Shown here one piece after another: positions 884 to 15,187 of a stretch of DNA of 25,839 bases. The position numbers were made by a program, and so were the translations under genes. The notes below the pieces were generated by a model, which was not told the origin of the DNA, ran no database searches, and saw nothing but the letters and a program-made list of their open reading frames with translations. How positions within the stretch are numbered: position 1 is the first letter of the stretch; each line of letters begins with the position of its first letter. Source of the DNA: a virus; the IMG/VR virus record IMGVR_UViG_3300036781_000206, positions 1 through 25,839 of that record; one strand, given 5' to 3'.

Positions 884-909
884 ATTGCCTCTTTTGACGA
901 AACGGTCAA
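881..909 (-). promoter_or_regulatory. Leftward promoter-like element with TTGAC-N6-GTCAA dyad
   Basis: Read leftward, TTGACC (909-904) is followed by 17 bases and AATGTG (886-881). Bases 894-909 form the dyad TTGAC-N6-GTCAA, perfect in this copy. The element overlaps the end of the zinc-module gene and directly precedes the small leftward gene group. The same dyad occurs at four other gene starts in the window, which makes it more than a chance -35 match. The -10 match is modest. Confidence 0.5.
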
Positions 910-1547
910 CACTTGATGTTGAGCACTTTTCGCACAGTTCCCGACACCGTAAAACATATCAGACACTTGCCCGTCACCACGTTGTGAGGCGTGTCACCGT
1001 GAAGCGCGCAGCCTAGCATGTAGGTGCTCTGGCCGGCGGCTCGGGCGGCGATCCTGGCCCGGTTCGGCGTGCGCCCCAGGCGTTGAAGACCGTTAGAGGC
1101 GAAACAGTTAATGCATTTGCCGTTGCCCGTGTACGCCTGGGTCATCCCGTGCGTCGTGCACTTGAGCGAATATGTCTTTTCGCTACGCGCCCGGGCCAGA
1201 GCTCTAAGCGACGGCGGCTTAGTGTTGCAGGCCATACAGTGGCCGGTTTTGGTGCGGAAATGGGTCAACCCGTGATGGTCGCAATAGTCCGGGTAGCGAT
1301 ACATTTTCCACGCCCTGGCGTTAGTACGGCGTAGCGGGCTAAAATAGTCGAAGCGTTGACCTATAGCGCGGTATAGTTGAGGCTCTTCGCCGACCCTCGT
1401 CATGCCGGTAGGCAGATATTCGAGGGCGATAATCGATTGATGTTCTTGCATATTCTCTAAATACCCCCGCAGCGACCGCTGTTTTGACCGACCACCGTAA
1501 AAAAACGCGTCAGATTCAGTGTGTTGTATGTATGCATGCATATACAT
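906..1547 (-). CDS. Protein with three identical C-x2-H-x11-C-x2-C zinc modules; possible GIY-YIG-type mobile nuclease
   Basis: The 213-residue protein has three evenly built metal sites: C89/H92/C104/C107, C130/H133/C145/C148 and C180/H183/C195/C198. Each follows C-x2-H-G with eleven residues between H and the second C pair. The second and third modules are also preceded by a basic Arg/Ala-rich helix and a TYxLxC stretch, so the repeat unit is about 50 residues. Similar Ala/Arg helix plus CxxH/GKCxxC units are found in phage HNH and endonuclease VII-like proteins and resemble DUF723-type treble clefs. Residues 5-75 (AYI, YGGRS, LRGYL, E55 and LRRTN) could be a diverged GIY-YIG fold, but this is weak. 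The start has AGGT eight bases upstream. Base composition looks less GC-rich than the neighbours, which fits a mobile gene. It may instead be a zinc DNA-binding protein with no nuclease activity. Confidence 0.55.
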   Translation of the reverse strand: MYMHAYIQHTESDAFFYGGRSKQRSLRGYLENMQEHQSIIALEYLPTGMTRVGEEPQLYRAIGQRFDYFSPLRRTNARAWKMYRYPDYCDHHGLTHFRTKTGHCMACNTKPPSLRALARARSEKTYSLKCTTHGMTQAYTGNGKCINCFASNGLQRLGRTPNRARIAARAAGQSTYMLGCALHGDTPHNVVTGKCLICFTVSGTVRKVLNIKC

Positions 1548-1761
1548 GCACTGACCTGTTTCCGGGTCAAGGGTTAATATGGGGCGATTGTTCTGGGGTG
1601 TTTTTTGTAATTAGGTATAAATATATAATAAAAACAAGCATATAAGGCCCCCTAATATAAACCCCAGTTCTATGGCCCCAGTGTGGCCCCGGTAGGGCCC
1701 CGGTATCAAGAGGGCTTCTAGGCCCTTGCGTGTTCATCGTGCGGGGCGTAACGGTTCGGTT
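1548..1761. promoter_or_regulatory. Divergent intergenic region with AT-rich tract; candidate promoter, origin or packaging region
   Basis: This is the only long gap between diverging genes near the left end. Bases about 1600-1662 are strongly AT-rich (including TATAAT at 1624-1629 and several TATA runs) in an otherwise GC-rich genome. They are followed by GGCCCC motifs at 1646, 1674, 1685 and 1696, and by a small hairpin, AGGGC (1711-1715) with GCCCT (1722-1726), before the terS start. The layout of an easily melted tract beside GC iterons is seen in replication origins; the location before terS is typical of cos or pac recognition sites. No convincing -35 with good spacing was found for the TATAAT. 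Confidence 0.5.
1674..1706 (+). repeat. Three 11-bp GGCCCC iterons upstream of terS
   Basis: Three consecutive units GGCCCCAGTGT, GGCCCCGGTAG and GGCCCCGGTAT are spaced exactly 11 bp, about one helical turn, so a protein could bind all three on one face of the DNA. A fourth, out-of-phase GGCCCC lies at 1646-1651. They are non-coding and precede the small terminase start by 56 bp. Confidence 0.65.
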
Positions 1762-2526
1762 ATGGCGCTTACGGCGAAACAAGAGAATTTTGCGACGCAC
1801 TACGCGGCGTATCGCAACCCGGCGGCCGCCTATCGCCATTCGTACGACGTAGCGACAACGACCCATCAAGCGGTCGTGCAAAGCGCCGCGGCGACCGTTC
1901 TAAGCCACGTTGACATAGCTAAAAGGATAGCCGAGCTAGACGCGCAACGCGACATAGCGATGCAATACGACGTGACCGATGTGCAACGGGTGTGGCTTGA
2001 TATTGCAACAGCGGACCCCAACGAGCTCGCATCAACACGCGTCGGCTGCTGCCGGCATTGCCGTGGCCATGACTTCGGTTACCAGTGGCGCGAACGGGAA
2101 TATATGGAGCAACTGCAACAGGTTGAGCGCCACAACCGCTTAAACCCCAAGGCCGCCGAGCCGCTGCCGGATCCAGGCGGCGGGTTCGGGTTCAACGCCA
2201 CGCTGCCACCCGTCCCTGAGTGTCCCGAGTGCCACGGTGAAGGCCTGGAACGCTACGTGCCGCGCGACACCACCAAGCTGTCGCCTGGCGGCCGGCTGCT
2301 GTTCTGCGGTGTCAAGAAGGGGCGCCACGGGCCCGAGATCATCATTGCCGACAAGATGCGCGCGCTCGAAAACGTCACCAAAATGATGGGCGGCTTTATC
2401 GAGAACGTGAAGCAAGACACCACGCTGCGCCTCATTGCTGAGTCGGCGGATTTGGAGCGAATCACCGACCCCAAAGAGGCGGCGAAGCTCTATATGGCCA
2501 TGGTCCGCGGCATCGCCCCAAAATGA
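1762..2526 (+). CDS. terS: Terminase small subunit with CxxC zinc-finger insertion
   Basis: The small terminase recognises phage DNA and hands it to the large subunit for packaging. The N-terminus MALTAKQENFATHYAAYRNP followed by AAAYRHSY is the typical Terminase_2-type helix-turn-helix opening. Residues 97-100 (CRHC) and 154-157 (CPECHGEG) make a DnaJ-like pair of zinc knuckles around a 50-residue Pro/Glu-rich linker, a variant seen in some phage small terminases. The C-terminal part from about 190 is helical and may oligomerise or contact the large subunit. The frame extends up to a TTG at 1726, but the ATG at 1762 matches the family start. Length is 254 residues. The large subunit lies 1.5 kb downstream, separated by small genes. 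Confidence 0.85.
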   Translation: MALTAKQENFATHYAAYRNPAAAYRHSYDVATTTHQAVVQSAAATVLSHVDIAKRIAELDAQRDIAMQYDVTDVQRVWLDIATADPNELASTRVGCCRHCRGHDFGYQWREREYMEQLQQVERHNRLNPKAAEPLPDPGGGFGFNATLPPVPECPECHGEGLERYVPRDTTKLSPGGRLLFCGVKKGRHGPEIIIADKMRALENVTKMMGGFIENVKQDTTLRLIAESADLERITDPKEAAKLYMAMVRGIAPK

Positions 2527-2530
2527 TTGC

Positions 2531-2558
2531 TTGACGAAACCGTTAGGCGGAGAATAGA
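2531..2558 (+). promoter_or_regulatory. Rightward promoter-like element with TTGAC-N6-GTTAG
   Basis: TTGACG (2531-2536), a 16-base spacer and AATAGA (2553-2558) lie just after the terS stop and 30 bases before the first small gene of the next group. Bases 2531-2546 match the shared TTGAC-N6-GTYAR pattern. The likely product is a message for the small genes 2589-3576. Confidence 0.5.
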
Positions 2559-2588
2559 CACGAATCCTAACTTTTGATGGGGTGATTC

Positions 2589-2762
2589 GTGGGCAAGCGA
2601 CGCAGGTGGGGCGGGGTGGACAAGCGGCCGGCGCCTCCCGTGCCCGGCAAGCAAATCAGCACGATGCCCCTGCAGTCGTTCAACGTCCACGTCCTGGCGG
2701 ATGGCACCGTAGCCGCCGTGCGCGGCGATGGGCGCGTGTTTCGTGGCCCGGTGACGTTATGA
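2589..2762 (+). CDS. Small basic hypothetical protein, 57 aa
   Basis: It starts with GTG at 2589 and ends with TGA at 2760-2762, overlapping the next ATG as ATGA. The first 22 residues are very basic (MGKRRRWGGVDKRPAPPVPG), then comes a beta-type stretch with a VLADGTVAAVRGDGRVF repeat-like pattern (two DG turns). A GGGG tract lies eight bases before the GTG and a promoter-like element 30 bases upstream. It could bind nucleic acid through the basic tail, but the family is not recognised. Confidence 0.5.
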   Translation: MGKRRRWGGVDKRPAPPVPGKQISTMPLQSFNVHVLADGTVAAVRGDGRVFRGPVTL

Positions 2763-3100
2763 GCCCCGAAGATATGCAGGCCCGCTATTTGCGCGGCGAG
2801 AAGGTGCCAGACATAGCCTTGGCGGCGAAGACGAGTCGCACCCGGGTGTATTACCAGCTCGACAAGCTCGGCACGCTGATGCGCAAGCAGGGGCCAGAAA
2901 CCGCAACGCCGATCGCTGACGAGATATTCAACGACCTGATGAAAGGCCCCATGACGCTGGACAACCTGCAGGACTGGTTAGGCGAGAAGAGACCTCAGGT
3001 CATTCATGGGTTGTTAGTGCTTTTGCGTTCTAATCGTATCGCGGTTATGCGGGTGAACACCACGCCCGAGCCGCCAACAACTCAAGGGGTTCTACTATGA
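2759..3100 (+). CDS. Small helix-turn-helix-like protein, 113 aa
   Basis: The ATG at 2759 overlaps the preceding stop; a longer reading of the frame from 2582 crosses that gene and is unlikely. Residues 4-35 (DMQARYLRGEKVPDIALAAK then TSRTRVYYQLDKLG) look like a helix-turn-helix of the type that reads a growing list of repeats, as in small phage regulators and resolvase-like C-termini. Residues 50-95 (two helices followed by LLVLLRSNRIAVMRV) resemble a winged-helix 'dissociation' segment. It is therefore a candidate DNA-binding regulator or a packaging accessory protein, given its place between the terminase genes. It ends with an ATGA overlap on a membrane micro-protein. The exact family is not recognised. 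Confidence 0.55.
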   Translation: MSPEDMQARYLRGEKVPDIALAAKTSRTRVYYQLDKLGTLMRKQGPETATPIADEIFNDLMKGPMTLDNLQDWLGEKRPQVIHGLLVLLRSNRIAVMRVNTTPEPPTTQGVLL

Positions 3101-3180
3101 AACTCGCATCATACATGTTGAACGGCGTGGCGTTGGGCTTCGGCCTCGTCATGGCCTATTACGCCTGGGTCGTGTTGTGA
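3097..3180 (+). CDS. 27-residue membrane micro-protein
   Basis: ATG at 3097 overlaps the previous stop as ATGA, and the TGA at 3178-3180 overlaps the next GTG. The peptide MKLASYMLNGVALGFGLVMA followed by YYAWVVL is almost wholly hydrophobic and would span the membrane once. Support comes from the two perfect coupling junctions rather than from similarity. No function can be assigned. Confidence 0.45.
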   Translation: MKLASYMLNGVALGFGLVMAYYAWVVL

Positions 3181-3308
3181 GCGCCGGTTTGGTGCTGCTG
3201 ATCGTGGCCGCCACGGCGGTGCTGGGCGCGGTCGGCGGCATCTGCTGGCTTGTGTGGGACGCCTGCGACCCCCGGCACCTCAATGACGACGTTCGTAACA
3301 GACGCTAG
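3177..3308 (+). CDS. 43-residue single-span membrane protein
   Basis: It begins with GTG at 3177, overlapping the stop of the micro-protein, and ends with TAG at 3306-3308 inside the start of the next gene. Residues 4-27 (GLVLLIVAATAVLGAVGGIC and WLVW) form a clear membrane span, followed by a charged cytoplasmic tail (DPRHLNDDVRNRR). The two adjacent membrane peptides may act together, but they are far from the recognised lysis genes and their role is unknown. Confidence 0.45.
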   Translation: MSAGLVLLIVAATAVLGAVGGICWLVWDACDPRHLNDDVRNRR

Positions 3309-3576
3309 CGCGCGCCAGTGCGTCCTATGGGGCGACACGGCCGCTGAGGGGCGCATGGTGGCCGATATGGTCGGCGCGGACCTGGCGACGTGGGTGGACG
3401 ATGGTTTCCCGCGCATCATGGTCACGGAAGACCAGGGTTTGCTGGCGCGGCAGCTTGGCGCACACCGTGTCGATTGGCTCGAACCAAAATACCAGTACGC
3501 CGCGATGACGGGCGACCTTGAGGGCATCGCGACGGTTGAGGCGTATCGCCGCGCCTGGACGCACCCCAGGCGTTGA
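3283..3576 (+). CDS. Hypothetical phage protein, 97 aa
   Basis: The ATG at 3283 gives a protein starting MTTFVTDASARQCVLWGDTA; the frame can be extended back to a TTG at 3250, which is less likely. It overlaps the end of the preceding membrane protein by 26 bases. It is soluble, with several acidic patches and no recognisable motif. The central part (FPRIMVTEDQGLLARQLGAH) has alternating strand and helix character. The stop at 3574-3576 lies within the -35 of the next promoter-like element, so this gene probably ends its transcription unit. Confidence 0.5.
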   Translation: MTTFVTDASARQCVLWGDTAAEGRMVADMVGADLATWVDDGFPRIMVTEDQGLLARQLGAHRVDWLEPKYQYAAMTGDLEGIATVEAYRRAWTHPRR

Positions 3577-3601
3577 CAGACTCGTCAAGCTAGGCGATGC
3601 G
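3573..3601 (+). promoter_or_regulatory. Rightward promoter-like element with TTGAC-N6-GTCAA
   Basis: TTGACA (3573-3578) is a consensus -35; the dyad TTGAC-N6-GTCAA covers 3573-3588. The best -10 is weak (GATGCG, 3596-3601, spacing 17). It lies just before the Ala/Pro/Glu repeat protein gene, whose ATG has AGGAA nine bases upstream. Confidence 0.45.
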
Positions 3602-3630
3602 TAGGGTTCACGCTCTGTCAGGAACGCATC

Positions 3631-4014
3631 ATGCCGAAGACCGAAGACACGCCGCCCGACGCCGCGGCCGAAGAGACCGCCCCGCCCGCACCGGAAGTCG
3701 AAACCGCTCCTGCACCCGAGGCCGAAGCGCCGCCGGCTGCTGAAGAAGCCCCGCCCGCACCGGAAGTCGAAACCGCTCCTGCACCCGAGGCCGAAGCGCC
3801 GCCGGCCGCCGAGGAGATCGTGCCAGACGAGACGGACGAGACGGACGCCCCGGACCTGCGCACCGCCATCGCGATCTTTATCGAAGGGGGCCAACAATTC
3901 GTTGCGGCCGCCGCGGGCTTGCAAGCCTACATCGACCACCTGAACGCCCAGCTGGCCGCCACCGGCCCCGACGCTGAGCCCTACGTCTACACCCCGCCAC
4001 GCGGCGACGGGTAA
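3631..4014 (+). CDS. Acidic Ala/Pro/Glu repeat protein, 127 aa
   Basis: The first two thirds are low-complexity Ala/Pro/Glu with a perfect 23-residue period (APPAPEVETAPAPEAEAPPA then AEE, twice), probably extended and disordered. An acidic DETDETD linker leads to a predicted helical pair (RTAIAIFIEGGQQFVAAAAG then LQAYIDHLNAQLAA). A disordered arm on a helical head could serve as a virion accessory or assembly protein. There is a good AGGAA ribosome site, its own promoter-like element upstream, and a strong terminator downstream, so it may be a single-gene unit. No family is recognised. Confidence 0.6.
   Translation: MPKTEDTPPDAAAEETAPPAPEVETAPAPEAEAPPAAEEAPPAPEVETAPAPEAEAPPAAEEIVPDETDETDAPDLRTAIAIFIEGGQQFVAAAAGLQAYIDHLNAQLAATGPDAEPYVYTPPRGDG
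3679..3806 (+). repeat. 59-bp direct repeat within the Ala/Pro/Glu gene
   Basis: Bases 3679-3737 and 3748-3806 are identical and offset by 69 bp, an exact 23 codons. The identity at DNA level, including third positions, points to a recent in-frame duplication and a tract whose copy number may vary. Confidence 0.8.
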
Positions 4015-4036
4015 CCCTTCCCCTCCCAGGGAACGC

Positions 4037-4082
4037 TATAAAAAGGGCGCGCTCACCGTATAGGGGGCGCGCCCTTTTTATA
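4037..4082. terminator. Strong, symmetric intrinsic terminator before terL
   Basis: Bases 4037-4052 pair perfectly with 4067-4082: TATAAAAA plus GGGCGCGC against GCGCGCCC plus TTTTTATA, with a 14-base loop. The GC core followed by T5 fits a rho-independent terminator in either direction. The terL ATG begins at 4084, one base beyond the stem, so the terminator also occupies the place of a ribosome binding site. Confidence 0.85.
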
Positions 4083-4083
4083 G

Positions 4084-5775
4084 ATGACCTTCGATTGGCG
4101 GAACCCCGACTACATTCCGATATTTCAGGAGCGTATGGAGCGCCTGGCCTGGATCCGGCGCGAGGTGGCCGCCCGCAACGAAGAGATCGAGGCGAAACGC
4201 AAGCGCGAGGCGCGGCGCCAAGCCGGCACAGACAACGGCGGCCCCGATCTAGACGTTGAGGTGCGGCCCGATATCCTGGTCGCCCTGCGCCTTTTTTACC
4301 GCGACAACCCCGCCGACTTCATTAACGACTGGGGTATGACGTTCGACCCGCGCAACCTCGATATCGGGTTGCCCGCCGCGGTGCCGTTTCTCCTCTTCAA
4401 CAAGCAACGCGAGTGGATCGACTGGACAGTCGACAACTGGCGCAACCGTAAGAACGGCTCAACCAAGAAGTCGCGGGACGGTGGCCTGTCGTGGCTGTCG
4501 GTGTCGCTGGGCTGCACGCTGTGCCTGCACCATGACGACCTGGCGCTGGGCTACGGCTCGCGCAAAGAGGAGTACGTGGACCGCCTGGGCTTCCCCAAAA
4601 GCCTGTTCTACAAGGCGCGCAAGTTCATGGAATACCTGCCGCCCGAGTTCAAGCAGGGGTGGGACGTCAAGCGCGACGCCCCGCACATGCGCATCAGCTT
4701 CCCCGCCACGCAAAGCGTGATGACGGGCGAGGCGGGCGACGGTATCGGGCGGGGCGACCGGGCCGCTATATATTTCGTGGATGAGTCGGCTTTTTTGGAG
4801 CGCCCCGCGTTGGTCGACGCCTCGTTGAGCGCCACCACCAATTGCCGCCAGGATATCAGCAGCGCCAACGGCATGGCCAACAGCTTCTATCAGAACATCG
4901 CCGCCGGCCGCACCAAGGTCTTTACGTTCCACTGGCGCGACGACCCCCGCAAAGACGAGGCGTGGTATATCGATCAGGTCAACAAGCTTGACCCCGTGAC
5001 CGTCGCGCAAGAGATCGATATCAACTTCGCCGCGTCGGTTGAGGGCGTCTTGATCCCGTCGGCCTGGGTGCAGTCGGCGGTCGATGCGCATATCAAGTTC
5101 GGTCACACCCCCAGCGGGGCGCGCTATGCCGCCCTGGACGTGGCGGACGAGGGGCGCGACCTGAACGCCCTGGCCGGCGCGCACGGCATCCTGTTGGAGA
5201 CGATCGAGGAATGGAGCGGCAAGGGGTCCGACACGTTTTACACGACGCAACGGGCGTTCGATCTTTGCCAGGATCACGGATACACCGAGCTGCTGTATGA
5301 CGCCGACGGCCTGGGCGCCTTCGTGCGGGGCGATAGCCGCGTGCTCAACGACCTGCGCCAGCACAAGCTGATGGTGAATCCGTTCCGGGGCTCGGGCGAG
5401 GTCATCAACCCCGAGAAGGAAGACGTTAAGGGGCGCCTCAACAACGACTATTTCCAGAACCGCAAAGCCCAAGCGTGGTGGGAATTGCGGGTGCGCTTCC
5501 GCAACACCTATCGCCGTGTCGTTGAGGGCATGCCGGACATACCGGACGACGCGTGCATATCGATCAGCTCGCAAATGCCGTTGTTGTCCAAGCTGCTGCC
5601 CGAGCTGTCGCAGCCGACCTATCAGAAAAGCCTGACCGGCAAAATCGTGGTGGACAAGCAGCCCGACGGCACCCGCTCGCCAAACCTGGCGGACGCCGTT
5701 ATGATGCGGTTCAGCAAGCCGGCGCGGCGTCGCCTCAACGTCAGCAGCGCAGCAGTGCAGGGGGCCGCCGCATGA
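4084..5775 (+). CDS. terL: Terminase large subunit (ATPase/nuclease)
   Basis: This motor cuts concatemeric phage DNA and pumps it into the prohead. The Walker A-like loop is at residues 128-137 (KKSRDGGLSW), and Walker B with the catalytic Glu is at 227-237 (AAIYFVDESAF). The nuclease domain has acidic motifs near D352 (ALDVADEG) and D406/D408 (LLYDADG). The 563-residue length is normal. The opening MTFDWRNPDYIPIFQERMER matches other large terminases, so the ATG at 4084 is preferred, although no ribosome binding site is visible because a terminator stem runs up to it. The stop overlaps the portal start as ATGA. Confidence 0.92.
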   Translation: MTFDWRNPDYIPIFQERMERLAWIRREVAARNEEIEAKRKREARRQAGTDNGGPDLDVEVRPDILVALRLFYRDNPADFINDWGMTFDPRNLDIGLPAAVPFLLFNKQREWIDWTVDNWRNRKNGSTKKSRDGGLSWLSVSLGCTLCLHHDDLALGYGSRKEEYVDRLGFPKSLFYKARKFMEYLPPEFKQGWDVKRDAPHMRISFPATQSVMTGEAGDGIGRGDRAAIYFVDESAFLERPALVDASLSATTNCRQDISSANGMANSFYQNIAAGRTKVFTFHWRDDPRKDEAWYIDQVNKLDPVTVAQEIDINFAASVEGVLIPSAWVQSAVDAHIKFGHTPSGARYAALDVADEGRDLNALAGAHGILLETIEEWSGKGSDTFYTTQRAFDLCQDHGYTELLYDADGLGAFVRGDSRVLNDLRQHKLMVNPFRGSGEVINPEKEDVKGRLNNDYFQNRKAQAWWELRVRFRNTYRRVVEGMPDIPDDACISISSQMPLLSKLLPELSQPTYQKSLTGKIVVDKQPDGTRSPNLADAVMMRFSKPARRRLNVSSAAVQGAAA

Positions 5776-7382
5776 CCATTGACGCGATCGATAACGCCGA
5801 AAAGCGGTTTAAGCTAAACGTTAAGGCGCCCATGGTCACGGTGCAGGTGCGCCCCGATGTGTTCGCCGCGGCCGCCCCGCCGCCCGGCGTAGCGCCCAGC
5901 CACCAACTGCCCGAACGCGTACAAATCGCCATGGACTGGGCCGGCGGCCAGGTCGGTGGGCTAAATGGCGTAGCGCCTTACGGGTACAGCATTTACGGCG
6001 GCAACGACGGATGGTTGGGCTATCCCTACCTCGCCCAGCTGACGCAGCGCGCCGAGTATCGCCGCCCCGCCGAGATCCTGGCCAAGGAAATGACGCGCGA
6101 GTGGGTTAAGCTCAAATATCGCAACAACGAAAAGACACCGCCGCTTGGCGCGCAGCAACCACCTAAGCCCGGGGAGCCGGCCGACCCCGGCGCGCTGTTG
6201 AACGCCGTTGCGCCTGCCCTACAGCGTGACGACAAATTGGCCAAGCTGCGCGACGCCATGGAGAAATTCAGCGTTCAGAAGCTCTTTCAGCAGATGGTTG
6301 AAACCGAAGGCTATTTCGGCCGGGCGCAGTTGTATATCGACATAGCTGGTGCGCAAGAGAAACCGGGCGAGCTCAACACGCCGCTGATTGTCGACCCCCG
6401 CAAAATCAAGGCCGGCTCGTTGCGCGGCTTTACGCTGGTAGAACCGTTCTGGACCTATCCGGCCAACTACAATTCCGACAAACCGCTACGGCCCGACTTC
6501 TACCAGCCGCAAGCGTGGTTTGTCATGGGCGACACGGTGCACCGCTCCCGCATGCTGACGCTCGTTGCGCGCCCGGTGCCCGATATCCTTAAAGCGGCGT
6601 ATAGCTTCGGCGGCCTGTCGTTGTCGCAGATGGCCAAGCCATACGTCGACAACTGGTTGCGCACCCGGCAGTCGGTCAGCGACTTGGTGCACGCGTTCTC
6701 AACCATGGTGTTGAGCACCGACATGTCCGCCGAGATCGAGGAAGGCTGCGACTCGTCTAGCCTGCAAAACCGCGCAGCGCTGTTCAACCTCTTCCGCGAC
6801 AATAAGGGGTTGATGATCGTTGATAAGACCAACGAGACCCTGACCAACGTAGCGGTGCCGTTGGGGAGCCTGGACGAGTTGCAGGCGCAGAGCCAAGAGC
6901 ATATGGCCAGCGTCGTCGGCATCCCCCTCGTGATCCTGCTGGGCGTCACGCCGTCGGGCCTCAACGCCTCGTCGGACGGCGAGGTGCGCACCTTCTACGC
7001 CTGGATTAAGGCGCAGCAAGAGGCCCACCTGTCGGGACTGCTACGCACGGCGCTCGATATCATTCAGTTGAGCGAGTTTGGGGAGATCGACCCGAATATA
7101 ACGTTCGAGTGGGTGCCGTTGTGGCAGGTGAGCGAGAAAGAGGCCGCCGAGATCCGCAAGCTGGTTATCGAAGGCGACACGGCCCTAATCGACGCGGGCG
7201 CAGTGTCGCCGGAAGAAGTGCGCCAAAAAGTCGCCAATGACGAGGACATGGGTTACGGCGATATCGACCTGTCCGGGCCGCCACCTGAGCCACCCGTGAC
7301 GGAGCTCCCCGACGAATTTGGCGGTGGCTCTGGCGATACGCCAGGGGATGACGAGGGGCCGCCGGGTGGCGCAGACGCCTAA
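5772..7382 (+). CDS. Portal protein (DUF1073 type)
   Basis: The portal is the dodecameric gate at the capsid vertex through which DNA passes. The 536-residue protein shows the DUF1073 features: the YRRPAEILAKEMTREW helix near residues 95-115, the SFGGLSLSQMAKPYVDNWLR segment and following helix near 280-310, and the VVGIPLVILLGVTPSGLNAS motif near 380-400, followed by a long helical wing. The C-terminus is Pro/Gly/Asp-rich and disordered. It overlaps terL by ATGA, and the Mu gpF-like gene begins inside its 3' end, the common terminase-portal-gpF order. The open frame runs upstream to 5553, but only as an extension over terL. Confidence 0.88.
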   Translation: MTIDAIDNAEKRFKLNVKAPMVTVQVRPDVFAAAAPPPGVAPSHQLPERVQIAMDWAGGQVGGLNGVAPYGYSIYGGNDGWLGYPYLAQLTQRAEYRRPAEILAKEMTREWVKLKYRNNEKTPPLGAQQPPKPGEPADPGALLNAVAPALQRDDKLAKLRDAMEKFSVQKLFQQMVETEGYFGRAQLYIDIAGAQEKPGELNTPLIVDPRKIKAGSLRGFTLVEPFWTYPANYNSDKPLRPDFYQPQAWFVMGDTVHRSRMLTLVARPVPDILKAAYSFGGLSLSQMAKPYVDNWLRTRQSVSDLVHAFSTMVLSTDMSAEIEEGCDSSSLQNRAALFNLFRDNKGLMIVDKTNETLTNVAVPLGSLDELQAQSQEHMASVVGIPLVILLGVTPSGLNASSDGEVRTFYAWIKAQQEAHLSGLLRTALDIIQLSEFGEIDPNITFEWVPLWQVSEKEAAEIRKLVIEGDTALIDAGAVSPEEVRQKVANDEDMGYGDIDLSGPPPEPPVTELPDEFGGGSGDTPGDDEGPPGGADA

Positions 7383-8726: not shown

Positions 8727-8747
8727 CCGCCAAAGGGGCCCTAGGCC

Positions 8748-10301
8748 ATGGCGACTATCACTGAGATTATACTTTACGCCGACTTTGTAGCGTCGGGCGG
8801 TCTCTTCACGCCTGCCGTAGCGATCCCCAACGGCACGGTTATTCGGTTCCACCTGCTTGATATCGGCGGCGACGGGAACAAAGGCTCAGGTGCGGCGGGC
8901 TCGCGCCGTAACGGGGGCAGCGGGGCCAGCGCATCCGGCAGCGATATCACCTATACCGGGTCGGCGATCCCTTACAATTTGCTCGCCCAGAGTGCGGGAC
9001 CTGGCCAAAGCTGGGTCGGCTCAACTTCCATCCTACTGACCAACTCGGGCCTAACCGCCAACGGATCGACGCAGGTGCTCGGCGGCGCAGCGGGCGTCGG
9101 CAACGTCTATGCTTACGCGGGCGGCGCGGGCAGCAGCAACGCCAGCGGGACGGGCGGCGGCGGCGGCGGCGGGTCGGCCGGCCCAGACGGTGCGGGCAGA
9201 AACGCAGGGTCGGTTGTCAGCAACGGTAACGGCGGCGGTGGGTCCGACGGCCTGCTGAGTACGGCGGCGGCGGGCAGCACCGGACCCACGGCGGGTGGCC
9301 AAGGCCCGCTAGGCACCGGCGCGGGCGCGCCTGGCGCGGGCGTCGACGGTTCAGATGGTGTCGACGGCGCGGGCGGCGGCGGCACGTCAGGCGGCGCCAA
9401 CAAAGGTGGCAACGGCGGCACCTACCAACTGTTCACCGCAACGCACGGGACAAACGCAGGTCTAACCGTTGGCCCGGGCGGCGGCGGCGGCGGGGCCAAG
9501 GCGGGGCAAGGTGGGCTTGGTGGTCCAGGCGGCGGCGGCGGTGGCGGCCAGGGCACAGGCGGGGCCATCGGCGGCTTCGCCTACATCGTCGCGGTCTATT
9601 CGACCGGCGGCACGAGCTACAACGTCACCGTCGCCGAGACGGGTGCGGCGGTCGATACGCTCACCACCACCGCCACACTGGGCAGCGCCCTTAGCGAGAC
9701 GGGCGCGGCGGTTGACACCACCAATTCCGTCGCGGTGCACCCCGCCAGCGTCAGCGACGCCCTGGCCGCGGTCGACACCGTGGGCTCGAGCGCCATCCAC
9801 CCCGTGACCGTCACGGAGGCCGCGAACGCCACCGATACGCTCGCCACCACCGCATCGCTGGGCGGCGCAGTCAATGAGGTGGGCGCGGCGGTCGATACAG
9901 TGTCGACGGGCGGCGGGACGGTCTATGCGGTGTCGGTGGTTGAGGCGGCCGCAGCGCTCGACACCGTGGGCTCGAGCGCCATCCACCCCGCCGGCCTCAG
10001 TGATACCCTGGCCGCGGTCGACACCGCCAGTGCACGCGCCACCTACCCGTCAGCCGTCGTTGAGGCGAGCGCGGCGGTCGATATAGTCGCTACGACCGGC
10101 GGGACGGTCTATGCGGTGAGCCTGGCGGAAGCGGCGCACGCCCAGGACACCCTGAGTGCCACCACCGGCCCCGTGCCCCCGCCCCAGCCACCGCGCTTGG
10201 TTAAGGCCGCCGCCTTCCCCCGATTCGCGCGGGCTTCCGCCTCCCCGCGTTTCGCGTATGCTCGCGCTTTCCCGCGACGCGTTGTGGCCAGGGGGCGCTG
10301 A
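8748..10301 (+). CDS. Glycine-rich, repeat-containing tail fibre-like protein, 517 aa
   Basis: Three parts are visible. Residues 1-40 form strands (MATITEIILYADFVASGGLF). Residues 42-285 are dominated by Gly, with runs of seven glycines near 140, 240 and 265; this is the composition of glycine-rich phage adhesins (Gly_rich_2-type, and polyglycine II-type receptor tips such as T-even gp38). Residues 294-475 hold nine units of about 20 residues with an E/D-x3-A-A-x-D-T core. The last 30 residues are basic with three A-x-PR motifs (AFPRFARASASPRFAYARAF). A ribosome site AAGGGG lies before ATG 8748. The next gene is adaptor-like, so this is likely a receptor-binding or fibre subunit, by composition and context. 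Confidence 0.65.
   Translation: MATITEIILYADFVASGGLFTPAVAIPNGTVIRFHLLDIGGDGNKGSGAAGSRRNGGSGASASGSDITYTGSAIPYNLLAQSAGPGQSWVGSTSILLTNSGLTANGSTQVLGGAAGVGNVYAYAGGAGSSNASGTGGGGGGGSAGPDGAGRNAGSVVSNGNGGGGSDGLLSTAAAGSTGPTAGGQGPLGTGAGAPGAGVDGSDGVDGAGGGGTSGGANKGGNGGTYQLFTATHGTNAGLTVGPGGGGGGAKAGQGGLGGPGGGGGGGQGTGGAIGGFAYIVAVYSTGGTSYNVTVAETGAAVDTLTTTATLGSALSETGAAVDTTNSVAVHPASVSDALAAVDTVGSSAIHPVTVTEAANATDTLATTASLGGAVNEVGAAVDTVSTGGGTVYAVSVVEAAAALDTVGSSAIHPAGLSDTLAAVDTASARATYPSAVVEASAAVDIVATTGGTVYAVSLAEAAHAQDTLSATTGPVPPPQPPRLVKAAAFPRFARASASPRFAYARAFPRRVVARGR
9627..10172 (+). repeat. Nine ~20-residue repeats and a 186-bp higher-order repeat
   Basis: The coding tract repeats the core (S/T/A)-V-x-E/D-x3-A-A-x-D-T about every 60 bp. 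Two longer exact matches are offset by 186 bp (62 codons): 9772-9804 with 9958-9990, and 9911-9932 with 10097-10118. This shows duplication of a three-unit block after the single units had diverged. Confidence 0.75.
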
Positions 10302-10304
10302 CAG

Positions 10305-10598
10305 ATGCCGTTTTACCCAATTGATGAGGCTAAAGCCGACATAGCGGTGCTGAACCTAGGCATCGACTGGGCGGATTTTCTTGTCACCGAGACGATCACC
10401 GGCGCCACGATTACGCTATGTGCAGATGACACATCGGGCGTCACGCTGGGCGCTGCGGCCTTCAACGCCACCGAGTCGTTTTGCTTGGTGTCCGGCGGCA
10501 TTATCGGCGCTACGGCCAAAATCGAGCACGTCATTACGACGAGCACCGGGGAGATCCAGCCCGGCACGTTGCTGCTGCAAATTGCCGCCGCGTGCTGA
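10305..10598 (+). CDS. Fibre-tail adaptor-like protein, 97 aa
   Basis: This small all-beta protein shows the layout of short phage proteins called fibre-tail adaptors: a tryptophan/aspartate stretch (LGIDWADFLVTETITGATIT), a turn-rich middle (DDTSGVTLGAAAF), a conserved LVSGGIIGATAKIEHVITTS stretch and a final strand. Such proteins adopt an Ig-like fold and are usually encoded beside tail fibre genes. It begins four bases after the stop of the glycine-rich fibre-like gene. The likely role is to join that fibre to the baseplate, inferred from fold pattern and location. Two cysteines besides the C-terminal one have no evident metal-site spacing. Confidence 0.55.
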   Translation: MPFYPIDEAKADIAVLNLGIDWADFLVTETITGATITLCADDTSGVTLGAAAFNATESFCLVSGGIIGATAKIEHVITTSTGEIQPGTLLLQIAAAC

Positions 10599-10666
10599 GC
10601 TAGACAGATTCCAGCAACACCCATAACGTCCCCGTCAACACCGTGACCTTTACCGTGGGTGATTCG

Positions 10667-11863
10667 ATGGGCCGTCTTTATGCTTTTTTGCTGATACTTC
10701 TGTTCTGCGCGGCGCCCGGCGCGTCGTATGCCGACAGTCGGCCGCACGACAATCTGGAATTTCCTAAGCCGCCGGCCACAAGTGCGGTGGTGGGGTCTCC
10801 GACCAACGGCATGTTCAAATGGCTGAACGGCCAGACGGGGCCGATTAGCGGCCTCAACGTTCACGATGCGACGGTTTACACAAATCGAATTGGTGTCCTG
10901 ATCGATAAGTGCACGGTGGTCGCCAACGGGTGCACGGGCGAAATTCCGGCAAATGGCTCGATCAAGAACACGAGTTTTACCCTGAACGCCCCCGCCACGG
11001 GGTCAAACCTGCCCGTCGCGGTGTCGATCATCAACGGCCACAACATCGTCTTGGACGGCGTGTCGTCGCATCATTTTTTTATGGCGCCCAGTTCCGGCTA
11101 CGGCAACGGCGACAATTTCTCAACGGAGCGCGGGAACGCGGCTCTAGGCACGGGCGCATATAATATCACCTACCGCAACACCTGGGCGGATGGCGCGACT
11201 GATGGAAATTACGACTTCAAAGGTGACGCGGTGGTGTTCGATAACGCCCGGGGGAACGATGGCGATATTTGTATTCGCGCCTGGGGCCACGGGAGCGGCA
11301 TCAGCACCTTTTGGTGTCAGCGTTGGGGGCCAAGCTCGCGCGGGTCGGCCTTCCAGGTCATCAAGTTGCCGGGGTCGAACGGCACAAAGGGATACCTGAA
11401 TCTTTCTGTCGCCCACGTTGAGGCTACGCCAGGCACGATACAGAAATTTGCCAACCTGCACTATACCGGCGCGACCTTGATTATCGGCAAGTGCTGGGGT
11501 CCGATGCCCGCGAACGACGGCAAGAACAAGCTGGTGACCTATGAAGACGGCGCGACGCCCGCCAACACGACGTTGCAGCTGGGCCCGGGCTGCAGGCTCG
11601 GCGACAACTACCCCGACCCCGCCGCGGCGACCGCGCCGCCAGCGATCGACCCGCCGCCCGTCGTGGCCGCGCCCATTCCGCTCTTCTGGCCCAGCACGGT
11701 CGCCTTGGTCGATAAGACGCCCGGTGACGGCAAGCTGACCATTTCCACCACCGCCAATTGGCACGCCCTTGGCGCTCGCGGCCCCGTGACCGTCAACACG
11801 CCGCCCGTGCCGTGCGCCGGCCCTAAGGGCGCGCCCGGGCTCTGCTACACGATGGCGCAGTAG
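10667..11863 (+). CDS. Secreted, cysteine-paired beta-helix-like protein, 398 aa
   Basis: The ATG at 10667 gives a textbook Sec signal peptide: MGRLYAFLLILLFCAAPGAS followed by YA, with cleavage expected after SYA before DSRP. A GTG at 10643 would add eight residues before the signal. The mature part has many short strands and asparagine/glycine turns (NITYRNTWADGATDGNYDFK, SIINGHNIVLDGVSS), typical of right-handed beta-helix proteins such as pectate lyase-like fibres. Cysteines come in close pairs (CTVVANGC, a pair 15 residues apart, CWG...PGC, CAGPKGAPGLC), which fits disulfides outside the cytoplasm. The C-terminal 80 residues are Pro/Ala-rich. A Sec signal on a protein in a fibre block is unusual. 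It could be a surface-modifying or exclusion protein or a polysaccharide-binding protein; no catalytic motif is identified. Confidence 0.65.
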   Translation: MGRLYAFLLILLFCAAPGASYADSRPHDNLEFPKPPATSAVVGSPTNGMFKWLNGQTGPISGLNVHDATVYTNRIGVLIDKCTVVANGCTGEIPANGSIKNTSFTLNAPATGSNLPVAVSIINGHNIVLDGVSSHHFFMAPSSGYGNGDNFSTERGNAALGTGAYNITYRNTWADGATDGNYDFKGDAVVFDNARGNDGDICIRAWGHGSGISTFWCQRWGPSSRGSAFQVIKLPGSNGTKGYLNLSVAHVEATPGTIQKFANLHYTGATLIIGKCWGPMPANDGKNKLVTYEDGATPANTTLQLGPGCRLGDNYPDPAAATAPPAIDPPPVVAAPIPLFWPSTVALVDKTPGDGKLTISTTANWHALGARGPVTVNTPPVPCAGPKGAPGLCYTMAQ

Positions 11864-11929
11864 GTCGACTAGATGACAGACGCAGGCCCGAATCGATCAG
11901 TAAGCGGGGAACGGCGGGAGGGGGTACGC

Positions 11930-12151
11930 ATGACGTTAGATCGGGCGGGAAAACTCGTTGGTATCGGTATGGCGTGCATCGCCTTATTTGGATCCGGCGC
12001 GGGCGCGGCGGTCACGGTGGGGGTCAATAACCAACGCCTAGACGCCGTGGAAAAGAAGGTCGCCGAGTACGGCACCGACCATGACCAGATTATCACGATG
12101 GCGGCCAACATCGCCTGGATAACGCGCGCCATGGGGGGAAGCCCGAAATGA
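11930..12151 (+). CDS. Small membrane protein with coiled-coil tail, 73 aa (possible lysis protein)
   Basis: ATG 11930 has a strong ribosome site (GGAGGGGG, a few bases upstream). An in-frame ATG at 11873 would give a 92-residue form with a charged N-terminal extension, raising the possibility of two products. Residues 10-32 (VGIGMACIALFGSGAGAAVT) form one membrane span, then comes a short heptad-type stretch (NNQRLDAVEKKVAEYGTDHD). It precedes the holin candidate with an ATGA overlap, so it probably belongs to the lysis cassette. One-span proteins with a coiled tail in this position can be antiholins or accessory holins; this is inference. Confidence 0.6.
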   Translation: MTLDRAGKLVGIGMACIALFGSGAGAAVTVGVNNQRLDAVEKKVAEYGTDHDQIITMAANIAWITRAMGGSPK

Positions 12152-12411
12152 TTCCGTCGCAGATCACGGTTGGCGCAAGCGGCGTTCCGCAGGCGGCGGG
12201 GTCAAACCTGCGCGTCGCCCTGATGCTGTTCGGGGCCTGGGCCGTCGGCCGGGGGTGGTTCAAACAAGACACCATCGACATGGTGGTGCCTATCGCTCTG
12301 ATCGCGGTGCCCTGGGCGTGGGGCCAGGTCAAAGGCTGGACGACCCATCGTAAGCTCGCCTCGATCGCCGCGGACCCCCGCGTGCCCGACGCGGTGGCGA
12401 CGATCAAATGA
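12148..12411 (+). CDS. Holin candidate, 87 aa
   Basis: The protein has two hydrophobic stretches, residues 21-37 (LRVALMLFGAWAVGRGWF) and 44-61 (MVVPIALIAVPWAWGQVKGW), followed by a basic/polar tail (THRKLASIAADPRVPDAVAT). The size, two spans and the GRGW...D connector are like the Pam3-gp28-type putative holins. Holins open the inner membrane at lysis to release the endolysin. The gene sits directly before an M15 peptidase gene, overlapping as ATGA (12408-12411), and has GGGGGGAAG before its own ATG. Confidence 0.7.
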   Translation: MIPSQITVGASGVPQAAGSNLRVALMLFGAWAVGRGWFKQDTIDMVVPIALIAVPWAWGQVKGWTTHRKLASIAADPRVPDAVATIK

Positions 12412-12842
12412 CCCTGTTGTCGCCGCACTTCAGCTTTGACGAGCTCACCTTTACGCAGCACCACACGCTCGACAACACCCCGCCGCCGGCCATCGTGCCG
12501 CACTTGTCGGTGCTGGCCCAGGGGCTCGAGGCGGTGCGCCACGTCCTGGGGGACCTACCCGTGCGCATTAATAGCGGCTACCGCTCGCCCGAGGTAAACG
12601 CCGCAGTCGGCGGGGCCTGGGACAGCGCCCACATGCAGGGTTTCGCTGCCGACTTTGTGTGCCCGCAATTCGGTGACCCGCTGGCCATCTGTCACCGCAT
12701 GACGCAAGGTGACCTTAAGTTTGATCAGGTGATCGAAGAAGGAACATGGGTTCATATCTCTTTCGCGCCAAAGATGCGGCAGCAGGTGCTTACCAAATCT
12801 GGCGCCGGCTACACGCCTGGCTTAACCAACGACCTACCCTAA
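12408..12842 (+). CDS. Endolysin, M15-type zinc peptidase
   Basis: The 144-residue protein is a single M15 (D-Ala-D-Ala carboxypeptidase/endopeptidase) domain. The signature SAHMQGFAAD at 73-82 supplies zinc ligands H75 and D82, and WVHIS at 114-118 supplies the third ligand H116, with E110 or E111 as catalytic acid. An upstream NSGYRSPEVNAAVGG segment (55-69) is also typical of the family. It would cleave peptide cross-bridges of peptidoglycan. No signal peptide is present, so it should depend on the adjacent holin for release. The gene is within the lysis cassette, before the spanin pair. Confidence 0.88.
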   Translation: MTLLSPHFSFDELTFTQHHTLDNTPPPAIVPHLSVLAQGLEAVRHVLGDLPVRINSGYRSPEVNAAVGGAWDSAHMQGFAADFVCPQFGDPLAICHRMTQGDLKFDQVIEEGTWVHISFAPKMRQQVLTKSGAGYTPGLTNDLP

Positions 12843-12865
12843 CCCCTACTTTGGAGACTGCCCTT

Positions 12866-13351
12866 ATGTCCGACGTATCCGTTACATTTCACAACGCGCT
12901 GAGCTTACTGGCCGGCACGTCGACCTTTGCGCAAGTTCGCGACAGCGAGATTGCCTTGTTTAAAAAGGACGTCGGCAAGCTGCCGGCCACGGCGCAGGCT
13001 TTCGTCAACGCCTCGATTGATAGCCTGCAGGTCGGCCTGTCGGCCCTCGTCGGCGCAGGGCAATCGGCAATCGGCCCGTTCCTGGCGGAATCCGTCGACG
13101 CCCAGGCCACCGACGTGCTCAACCTGCTGGCCAAGCTCGGCGTGCCCACGGGCGGCGCGCTGCTGCAACCCGCCGAGCGCGCGGCGCTGCAGGCGGTAAT
13201 TACGGGGCTGAAGGCGGGCCTCGATCGCGTCGGAATCCAGATCGCCACCAACGGCACCGTGACCGTCGCCGAAAAGCCGGCTGTTCTTTCCCAACCGGGG
13301 GTGGCGCCGGTCGCTCTTCCCGTCTTGGTTAACACGGCGGGCGCCCTCTAG
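12866..13351 (+). CDS. Hypothetical protein in lysis cassette, 161 aa
   Basis: The ATG at 12866 has GGAG eight to eleven bases upstream; the open frame begins earlier at 12746, but only inside the endolysin gene. The product is almost entirely helical and rich in Ala, Leu and Val, with no signal peptide and no convincing membrane span. Residues 10-130 resemble an amphipathic helical bundle, followed by a Pro/Val-rich C-terminus (AVLSQPGVAPVALPVLVN). It lies between the endolysin and the spanins and shares one base with the i-spanin start, so expression late in infection is likely. No family is recognised. Confidence 0.6.
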   Translation: MSDVSVTFHNALSLLAGTSTFAQVRDSEIALFKKDVGKLPATAQAFVNASIDSLQVGLSALVGAGQSAIGPFLAESVDAQATDVLNLLAKLGVPTGGALLQPAERAALQAVITGLKAGLDRVGIQIATNGTVTVAEKPAVLSQPGVAPVALPVLVNTAGAL

Positions 13352-13614
13352 TGTGGGGCGGGCTCGCAAAGCTTATCGGCTGGCTGTTCGGTAAGCTTTG
13401 CGGCGTGCCGCCCGTCTCGGCGGAACAACAGCTAGGCCAGGCCAAGAGCCAGGTGGCGCAGGAGGCGCAAGCTAATGACCAGTTACAGGTTGCCGCTCGG
13501 GCTCGCGCTGCTGCTGACGCTCAACGCGTGCGCGATGGTCCCCACGCCGGGGACGTCACCACCGACCCTAACGCCGCCATCAACCGCAATCCCGACAACC
13601 ACTTCCGCGACTAG
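13351..13614 (+). CDS. Inner-membrane spanin (Rz-like), 87 aa
   Basis: GTG 13351 overlaps the preceding TAG. The N-terminal hydrophobic anchor (GLAKLIGWLFGKLCGVPPVS) is followed by an Ala/Gln-rich coiled coil (EQQLGQAKSQVAQEAQANDQ onward) and a polar tail. That is the architecture of a small i-spanin, which links through the periplasm to an outer-membrane lipoprotein and fuses the two membranes at the end of lysis. The partner is encoded in a different frame within its 3' half, as in lambda Rz/Rz1. The protein is short for the class and the anchor is brief. Confidence 0.65.
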   Translation: MWGGLAKLIGWLFGKLCGVPPVSAEQQLGQAKSQVAQEAQANDQLQVAARARAAADAQRVRDGPHAGDVTTDPNAAINRNPDNHFRD

Positions 13615-13741
13615 CGCGGATCTTGTGTGCTCGCAAATGCAGGTGGTCCAGCTGTCGCGCAACGATACGGACGGCACGAAAGAACAGGTGCAGGCCAACA
13701 ATCACGTGTTAGCGGCGCTGTGCGGCAAAAACACCCCCTAG
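13475..13741 (+). CDS. Outer-membrane lipoprotein spanin (Rz1-like), 88 aa
   Basis: The N-terminus MTSYRLPLGLALLLTLNACA is a lipoprotein signal with a lipobox-type ending (L-N-A-C, Cys19). The mature part is Pro/Thr/Ser-rich (MVPTPGTSPPTLTPPSTAIP), as in Rz1, then has a polar region with two further cysteines. The gene starts in a different frame inside the i-spanin gene and runs 127 bases beyond it, an overlapping rather than fully embedded Rz/Rz1 arrangement. This implies a Gram-negative host, because the partner lipoprotein needs an outer membrane. Confidence 0.78.
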   Translation: MTSYRLPLGLALLLTLNACAMVPTPGTSPPTLTPPSTAIPTTTSATSADLVCSQMQVVQLSRNDTDGTKEQVQANNHVLAALCGKNTP

Positions 13742-13885
13742 GCGGCGGTGCTCGACTTCACGATTAGAATCCGGGGGACAGTCATGCGCAGGCCCAGGCC
13801 GACAGGTGCGTTAAGATAACGGACGAGGTATGCGAAAGCGGCCGGGCCCCCAAGACGTTGGACCCTGTAACCCGTCAAGTCGGTG

Positions 13886-14269
13886 CTACACGTCGTCTAG
13901 CAACACAAAGCGGTGCTGCACCATCGGGCTGGCGTCGGCTACGACGGGCGGCGTAGGTTCCCACGTTTCGCCCGTCTCGGCGTTGGTGGGCCAACAAATG
14001 ACCCGCAATTCACCGTGCCCGGCAACAACGAGCTCGCCCAGGGCGTCGCGCAATTCTTTAACGGTCATTGGGCGTTTTCCTTGGTCAGGCTTTCGCAGAG
14101 TCGGCGGGGGTTGATGTAAATTTCTGAATTTCTGGTCAACGAGGTCGGCAACATATAGGCGATTGCGGCGACGTTCGCCCCAAAGGATCAGGCCAATCCC
14201 AAACAGCACGATAAGGGGTTGCGCCACATGCGCGCCGAGTAGGTGCCCGGTCAATTCTTTAACGGTCAT
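13886..14269 (-). CDS. Small membrane protein with an internal second start, 127 aa (60-aa short form)
   Basis: The ATG at 14269 has GAGG seven bases upstream and overlaps the previous stop as ATGA. The protein opens MTVKELTGHLLGAHVAQPLI, has a single hydrophobic segment (VAQPLIVLFGIGLILWG) and a basic linker, then reads MTVKELRDALGELVVAGHGE at residue 68. That second start (ATG 14068) would give a free 60-residue soluble protein of the 'MTVKEL...GHGEL' kind often seen as a stand-alone small phage protein. So the gene may make two products, or be a fusion made by duplication of the start region. It is the last gene of a leftward group. Function is unknown. Confidence 0.55.
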   Translation of the reverse strand: MTVKELTGHLLGAHVAQPLIVLFGIGLILWGERRRNRLYVADLVDQKFRNLHQPPPTLRKPDQGKRPMTVKELRDALGELVVAGHGELRVICWPTNAETGETWEPTPPVVADASPMVQHRFVLLDDV

Positions 14270-14272
14270 TGG
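14051..14272 (-). repeat. Duplicated 21-bp start region (14051-14071 and 14252-14272)
   Basis: The two 21-bp copies (rightward strand: CAATTCTTTAACGGTCATTGG) are identical and 201 bp apart, an exact 67 codons. Each contains the ATG and the codons for MTVKEL in the leftward direction plus the two bases before the ATG. Confidence 0.8.
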
Positions 14273-14658
14273 AACCTCACCTTCCCGTCGTCGCCCAGGG
14301 TGACGGTGAGGGGCGGGAGGCCGGGCCATTTCCCTGCCATGTCGAAGCCACCGCCCTGACGGACGCACCAAGCCTGCCAGCCGCCTGGATAATTCGGACT
14401 TACAGGGAATGTTGACTGGATCGCCGCGCAGTCCTCAATGATCCGCGCCAGGGTTTCGGGGGCAAGGTCGGAGAAGCCGGGCGACGGGCTGTCATCGTCT
14501 AGAGCAATCGCGGCCAACCGAGACGCCTCGACCATCAGCGCCTCGATATAGCCTTGCGTGAAGGGGCCCAGGTTCGCCCAAGTCTTATACCCAGACGCGC
14601 GCGCGTCTGTCTCACCGTGACCGTACACAATGCCTGACGTATCGAGTTGGAAGGTCAT
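14266..14658 (-). CDS. Hypothetical phage protein, 130 aa
   Basis: The ATG at 14658 is coupled to the previous stop by a TAATG-type overlap. The protein has an aromatic/Gly N-terminal half (GYKTWANLGPFTQGYIEALM), a helical middle and a C-terminal end with turn-rich strands (PPLTVTLGDDGKVRFQ). No signal, membrane span or catalytic motif is visible. Its neighbours on the same strand are also small and unknown; they share one promoter-like element at 14955-14983. Small genes of this kind, on the strand opposite to virion genes, are often early or accessory genes. Confidence 0.6.
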   Translation of the reverse strand: MTFQLDTSGIVYGHGETDARASGYKTWANLGPFTQGYIEALMVEASRLAAIALDDDSPSPGFSDLAPETLARIIEDCAAIQSTFPVSPNYPGGWQAWCVRQGGGFDMAGKWPGLPPLTVTLGDDGKVRFQ

Positions 14659-14933
14659 TAAAGATTGATTCCTTGCTCGTCTGCGCGGGACTGAAGAGCG
14701 TCTTCAGCCGAGGCCAACATGGTTTTCCAATAGGCCAAGGTTCCATACCCGTGATGGATGCTGTTTTCGTTGTCGACACCCTCATCTGTCAGATAGGCGC
14801 GGTCCTGGCCGTCCCGGACTTCCATGGCGGCCACCTTGGTGATGAAAGCGTAATATTCGTCCTGCGCTTTGCCGAGCGCCAGGGCGGCGGCGTCTTCGGC
14901 GGCCCAAATGGCTTTTTGCTGGTCCAAGGTCAT
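14658..14933 (-). CDS. Hypothetical phage protein, 91 aa
   Basis: ATG 14933 has AGGAGA eight to thirteen bases upstream, much better than the longer reading from 14987, which would overlap the promoter-like element. The product is a helical, Ala/Glu-rich protein (MTLDQQKAIWAAEDAAALAL onward) with no membrane span. The composition and length are typical of small soluble phage proteins with coiled-coil character. It is the first gene of a leftward group of three joined by overlapping stop and start codons. Family not recognised. Confidence 0.65.
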   Translation of the reverse strand: MTLDQQKAIWAAEDAAALALGKAQDEYYAFITKVAAMEVRDGQDRAYLTDEGVDNENSIHHGYGTLAYWKTMLASAEDALQSRADEQGINL

Positions 14934-14954
14934 GGTGTCGTCTCCTATGCCCCT

Positions 14955-14983
14955 GTTATCGCCCATCTTAACGAAACCGTCAA
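14955..14983 (-). promoter_or_regulatory. Leftward promoter-like element with TTGAC-N6-GTTAA
   Basis: Read leftward: TTGACG (14983-14978), 17-base spacer, GATAAC (14960-14955). The dyad TTGAC-N6-GTTAA covers 14983-14968. Transcription would start near 14948, leaving a short leader with the AGGAGA ribosome site of the 91-aa gene. It is the best-formed of the five elements. Confidence 0.65.
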
Positions 14984-15000
14984 GCATTATTTTTGCGCCG

Positions 15001-15028
15001 TTGACGAAAGCGTTACGCGTGCTATGGT
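15001..15028 (+). promoter_or_regulatory. Rightward promoter-like element with TTGAC-N6-GTTAC
   Basis: TTGACG (15001-15006), 16-base spacer and TATGGT (15023-15028). It is back to back with the leftward element 18 bases away, forming a divergent promoter pair. It would drive the protease/capsid/tail operon through a leader of about 150 bases. Confidence 0.62.
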
Positions 15029-15035
15029 GCGTTCA

Positions 15036-15187
15036 GGCTTGAGGGCCGAAAGGTGCGGGCCGGGCTCGCGTCGGAGTGAAGCGGGGTTCGATGCCCCAAA
15101 CCGAAGGGTTCGACTCCCTCCGGTGCTTGGCCGCAATATATCCGACCCTCTTGCTTAGCAGGCGCGAAGCGTGGCAACTCTGGGCCC
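15036..15187 (+). other. Structured 5' leader of the protease-capsid operon
   Basis: This non-coding leader holds two tandem small stem-loops with T-loop-like heptanucleotide loops: GGGG-TTCGATG-CCCC (15083-15097) and AGGG-TTCGACT-CCCT (15105-15119). The surroundings include repeated GGCC and GGTGC words. A whole tRNA cannot be built here. The leader may act in translation or message stability; no known riboswitch class is recognised. Confidence 0.45.

Follow-up and report, generated by a model that had tools for sequence, protein, structure and literature searches.

Dyad copies and their gene context

The window, i.e. the whole stretch of DNA that was analysed, is a complete IMG/VR record of 25,839 b, yet it represents only a fragment of a phage. 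Its TerL is ~57 % identical to that of Burkholderia phage Magia, and among GenBank phages none was found to be closely related to the window at the DNA level. Five copies of an inverted repeat, TTGAC-N6-GTCAA in its perfect form, were confirmed at the coordinates given in the original prediction (Table 1). The copies at 894 and 3573 are perfect; that at 14968, which reads TTAAC..GTCAA on the + strand, has one mismatch, and those at 2531 and 15001 have two each, with right halves of GTTAG and GTTAC, respectively. In each case the left half of the dyad would supply the −35 element of a sigma70-type promoter, with the right half positioned inside the spacer.

Table 1. Dyad copies, associated promoter elements and neighbouring features in the window
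Feature	Coordinates	Strand	Context
Perfect dyad TTGAC-N6-GTCAA	894–909	−	Between two leftward genes; overlaps stop codon of 906–1547; 10 bp before called GTG start at 883
Dyad with two mismatches (TTGACGAAACCGTTAG)	2531–2546	+	Just 3' of terS
Small protein after the 2531 site	2759–3100		HTH-like by eye (KVPDIALAAKTSRTRVYYQLDKL)
Perfect dyad	3573–3588	+	Overlaps stop codon of 3283–3576; located 5' of a small gene preceding terL
Small acidic A-, P- and E-rich protein	3631–4014		Near-perfect internal repeats (APPAPEVETAPAPEAEAPPAAEE)
Dyad with one mismatch	14968–14983	−	Contains −35 TTGACG (14983–14978) of leftward promoter
−10 GATAAC of 14968 promoter	14960–14955	−	Promoter serves leftward small-gene cassette 13886–14933
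Dyad with two mismatches	15001–15016	+	−35 TTGACG of rightward promoter ahead of DUF2213/capsid genes
−10 TATGGT of 15001 promoter	15023–15028	+	Spacer 16; matches a promoter best among the five
Leader of ~160 bp	15029–15187		Between 15001 promoter and DUF2213 gene; holds stretch resembling tRNA T-arm (AGGGTTCGACTCCCT)

Exact matches to TTGACN6GTYAR, the pattern under which the copies had been described, numbered six (counted by strand) in the window against 0.02 expected in shuffled sequences; the pattern thus held as far as the excess of exact matches is concerned, but did not extend to the copy at 15001, which reads GTTAC. Nor was it upheld that all five are equally strong, as the prediction implied. 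Intergenic dyads with two mismatches were found in only modest excess in the window (3 versus 1.1 at control spacers). As such, the sites at 2531 and 15001 are weak on the dyad alone, and the case for them is made by an extended match common to both (TTGACGAAA[CG]CGTTA) and by promoter context, together with synteny for 2531, which corresponds in position to perfect dyads located at the terS end or shortly beyond it in L005, L006, L007, L009 and L016. A GAAA[CG] core is present on the + strand in four of the five window copies and is not conserved in relatives; the GAAAC core was rejected as part of the motif for being specific to the window.

Applying a sigma70-type test (−35 TTGAC, with a −10 at a spacer of 16–18), we found a good or fair −10 at two of the five window sites, namely 15001 (good) and 14968 (fair, spacer 17). 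Those at 2531 (TAGACA, spacer 18) and 894 (CAATGT, spacer 16) are weak, and at 894 any −10 would coincide in part with the GTG called as the start codon. For 3573, no convincing −10 exists at a spacer of 15–18. The expectation that every copy would be followed by a −10 after 16–17 bases therefore fails at 3573 and is questionable at 894, and promoters at these two sites are doubtful. The 3573 copy shares its position with a copy in L005 (4529) whose TAGGGT lies at spacer 18, and as the same hexamer is displaced to 23 bases in the window, the promoter may have been altered in this phage.

Window proteins encoded near the dyads, including that at 2759–3100, were rejected as candidates for the regulator because they have no Pfam or PHROG match; for the acidic protein at 3631–4014, no Pfam family was matched. 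Within the 15029–15187 leader, ARAGORN and Rfam identified no tRNA or Rfam element, and its folding was no better than that of shuffled sequences.

Enrichment of the dyad and its placement at promoters

We counted every perfect 5-mer inverted repeat at spacers of 0–20 in the window together with the ten relatives closest to it in TerL. TTGAC-N6-GTCAA ranked first among all combinations of 5-mer and spacer, with 20 copies observed versus 0.28 expected. Across nine related records, which overlap in some of their content and for which genes were called with a simple custom script rather than a standard gene finder, 26 perfect dyads were intergenic versus 3 within called genes, with intergenic DNA constituting 6–18 % of these records. 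Hence copies are not as frequent inside genes as outside them, an outcome that had been named in advance as grounds for abandoning the idea; ~90 % of copies are intergenic. Two of the three intragenic dyads are no more than ~30 bp from a stop codon, and in many cases the copy starts at the stop codon that ends the preceding gene. At 30 prophage loci with TerL relatives, taken from bacterial genomes that were mostly gammaproteobacterial, the dyad was at background, with one copy in 508 kb versus 0.75 at control spacings. The dyad is real, and present in the window and its relatives far above chance.

When clade sites were aligned on the dyad, the majority showed TA 6–10 bases after it, which corresponds to a −10 at spacer 16–18 from TTGAC, and for pooled perfect dyads the −10 score peaked at these same spacers. 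The sigma70-type arrangement is thus a trend in the clade, and it is also found in Klebsiella phage JD001 (see below). The recurrence of the same dyad at promoters across related phages supports the original idea of a regulator site inside promoters. It might be argued that no regulator is involved, and that the dyad reflects random occurrence, conservation of the −35 as such or a hairpin formed in RNA at the ends of genes, given that TTGAC is the −35 consensus, two of the window dyads are weak and several copies overlap stop codons. GTCAA, however, features in no promoter consensus and yet is retained at exactly 6 bases, the arms hold fixed letters among aligned sites, and the counts at control spacings already contradict such an explanation; we regard its probability as negligible.

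A small TetR_N-domain protein encoded beside the dyad

In four relatives (G003, G005, G006 and G010), a protein of 100–111 residues is encoded between the dyad and a gene of ~800 codons, the product of which has NrS-1 polymerase-like and DUF5906 domains in G005 and G010. In G006, the dyad lies on the start codon of the small gene itself. The small protein, hereafter mini-TetR, matches PHROG 8723, for which function is listed as unknown, and TetR_N (PF00440) was detected above the Pfam cut-off in three of the four proteins and below it in the fourth (E=0.0013). Homologues are found in Klebsiella Jedunavirus phages (e.g. JD001 gp45), Shewanella phage SppYZU01 and Pseudomonas phage Psp6. Most members are 90–115 aa in length and end soon after the helix–turn–helix, where the structural model shows only short helices, and the C-terminal ligand-binding/dimerisation domain of canonical TetR proteins is absent. 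Mini-TetR is thus a putative TetR_N-domain regulator and not a canonical TetR protein.

The AlphaFold model of the G005 protein is composed entirely of helices (mean pLDDT 92.8). Its best solved matches in Foldseek were TetR-family structures, the first being EilR bound to its palindromic operator eilO (60 columns of one chain at 1.0 Å, 38 % identity), with E-values that are modest (0.005–0.04) because only the domain is shared. EilR differs in being a full-length, dye-responsive host repressor with a 24-bp operator of other half-site and spacing. Sequence-profile searches likewise returned TetR-family PDB structures (best 2e-11), including those of RutR (2e-6), which is distinguished from mini-TetR as a full-length, ligand-controlled host protein. 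The RutR box is TTGACCAnnTGGTCAA.

The association between dyad and gene was assessed in 37 non-redundant mini-TetR genes, some from loci obtained by dyad search and most by protein searches. A dyad with ≤1 mismatch at spacer 6 was present near the start of 28 of these, as compared with 4 of 444 (about 1 %) for 12 other spacings at the same genes. For a held-out set, which was fetched afterwards and is ≤85 % identical to the first set and within itself, the corresponding figures were 14 of 27 genes versus 6 of 405 at other spacings; the remaining 13 genes have no close dyad. Among 39 records chosen by similarity to TerL or to the DUF2213 head-region protein, 9 of 11 with mini-TetR contained one or more perfect dyads, versus 4 of 28 without it (Fisher p = 1.4e-4, uncorrected for relatedness). 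Mini-TetR is present and the perfect dyad absent in G009 and G058, and G007, a fragment of the G006 type, has two dyads and no mini-TetR. A3 was too poorly conserved for use as a scan query, and a single-protein scan yielded two loci only.

A subfamily of 166–218 aa (L220, L222, L229 and L234) has extra sequence N-terminal of the TetR_N domain. Its start-proximal dyad carries one mismatch in L220 and L222 and two in L229 and L234, where GGCAC replaces GTCAA, and is followed by TTAGTAT or ATAGTAT. L234 is Shewanella phage SppYZU01, which encodes a TetR-like protein of 166 aa and yet contains no perfect TTGAC dyad in its whole record; a CGATA-N7-TATCG inverted repeat occurs there four times versus 0.4 expected, perhaps by chance.

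A search conducted from the DNA side retrieved 58 contigs on the basis of two adjacent perfect dyads. Contigs with dispersed dyads (e.g. L159, L175, L181, L182, L184 and L197) encode mini-TetR, and most of the others have clustered dyad arrays and no mini-TetR. The perfect dyad alone was therefore rejected as a marker for the protein, as most tandem-dyad contigs are without it and resemble other operator arrays. In L157, L177, L191, L201 and similar GC-poor contigs, arrays of 3–5 perfect dyads are spaced at 22–24 bp, with one 79-bp gap in L201, and no mini-TetR is encoded; these are probably operators of another kind of repressor.

That contigs exist with tandem dyads every 19–25 bp and without mini-TetR indicates that other proteins can use the dyad, and the window copies could accordingly be the immunity operators at which a CI-type phage repressor acts, with no link to mini-TetR. 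In the window, however, the sites occur scattered and singly, or as a pair, in front of several transcription units, an arrangement shared with the TerL relatives that bear mini-TetR, making a CI-type origin highly unlikely. Mini-TetR itself is not encoded in the 25.8-kb window. As this fragment does not include the replication region, in which relatives carry their mini-TetR gene, we infer that the phage encodes one in its unsequenced part.

The dyad in Klebsiella phage JD001 and its proposed role

In JD001 there are seven perfect dyads, and spacers of 0–12 other than 6 gave none. Its gp45, annotated in the record merely as TetR family, is a 92 aa mini-TetR (PHROG 8723) that, like its homologues above, adjoins a replication gene of the primase/polymerase kind, here that for primase, with a perfect dyad in its own promoter. 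Ten JD001 dyads with ≤1 mismatch carry TTGAC[GC]-N17/18 promoters, with −10 elements including TATAGT, TACAGT, TATACT, CATACT and TAGTAT, and these are positioned 39–67 bp upstream of annotated starts, except at gp24, the start of which overlaps the site. The genes so led are small hypothetical genes (several of them opposing structural genes), the SSB gene, the TetR–primase operon and gp49, with an exonuclease gene downstream; judging from the kind of gene involved, they would be expressed early. None of the ten promoters precedes structural genes. No clear leftward promoter is seen at an eleventh, perfect site, which is at position 90 close to the baseplate-spike gene. At the one-mismatch promoter sites the change is confined to the outermost base of the downstream half, and for this reason the operator core is probably TGAC-N6-GTCA, with the outer T apparently retained by the −35. 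In a limited literature collection, searches returned no published operator or function for JD001 gp45/PHROG 8723, nothing combining Jedunavirus and promoters, and nothing relevant on phage TetR operators.

The original prediction left open whether one phage or one host regulator acts at the dyad. As the dyad recurs at promoters of relatives and both co-occurs with and precedes the mini-TetR gene, the regulator is most likely phage-encoded, although its gene is not within the window fragment. A host protein might instead bind the dyad, with the mini-TetR gene merely one of its targets. In favour of this are CtrA, a host protein with the consensus TTAA-N7-TTAA at promoters of some alphaproteobacterial phages (PMC9437464), where dyad sites similarly serve one regulator, and the TetR-family protein RutR of Escherichia coli, which binds a palindrome of ~16 bp (PMC10891134), comparable in length to the dyad. 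The sequence described here is not the CtrA consensus. Against a host regulator, the dyad tracks a phage gene and is one and the same in phages whose hosts and GC content differ, both Klebsiella phages and GC-rich lineages; we thus consider a host regulator distinctly unlikely.

Taken together, it is likely that the dyad is the operator of an autoregulated phage mini-TetR that represses many dispersed phage promoters. Computed support comes from dyad enrichment, promoter placement, conservation in the mini-TetR gene's own promoter across diverse phages, and the TetR_N fold. Under the proposed mechanism, a protein of 90–110 residues, consisting of the TetR_N helix–turn–helix and a short conserved tail with no ligand-binding domain, would bind as a dimer to TTGAC-N6-GTCAA over the −35 and the upstream portion of the spacer, and would thereby block RNA polymerase at many sigma70-type promoters, that of its own gene included. 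With no ligand domain, control would likely be by concentration-dependent negative feedback: promoters would fire early, mini-TetR would accumulate, and all would then be shut down together.

Repression fits best because the −35 and upstream spacer lie under the site in promoters that appear competent by themselves, and because the G006 site lies on a start codon. The same protein might instead activate these promoters through the same operator, since all of the association evidence is silent on sign and some of the GC-rich −10s are weak. Against this are the seemingly competent promoters of JD001, with TTGAC[GC]-N17 and good −10s, the location of the G006 site on the start codon of the regulator, and the precedents with operators in core promoters, which repress: repressible promoters were built by inserting a shortened EilR operator into the spacer beside the −35 or −10 (PMC6127294), and Aca (anti-CRISPR-associated) proteins are small HTH autorepressors of phages and mobile elements that act on their own operon at inverted repeats within its core promoter (PMC9410906). 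Activation is thus unlikely. Mini-TetR is similar to Aca proteins as a small HTH protein with an inverted repeat inside its own operon's core promoter, but its HTH is of the TetR_N type, its gene is linked to one for replication and its site recurs in many dispersed promoters; it is not classed here as an Aca protein.

More tentatively, and with somewhat less than even confidence, we suggest that a widespread class of tailed phages, including Klebsiella Jedunavirus, uses a TetR DNA-binding domain free of a ligand domain as a global switch for early genes, and that scattered accessory cassettes, often between or against structural genes, join the regulon by means of their own dyad promoter. The present findings propose a concrete operator, regulon and mechanism for a family to which PHROGs assigns no function, and an annotation that was vague becomes, in a phage genus with good isolates, a circuit that can be tested. 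If such an early switch exists, the dyad would be an address label for small early genes of host takeover and counter-defence, and a TetR domain operating independently of ligand control would be useful as a minimal repressor.
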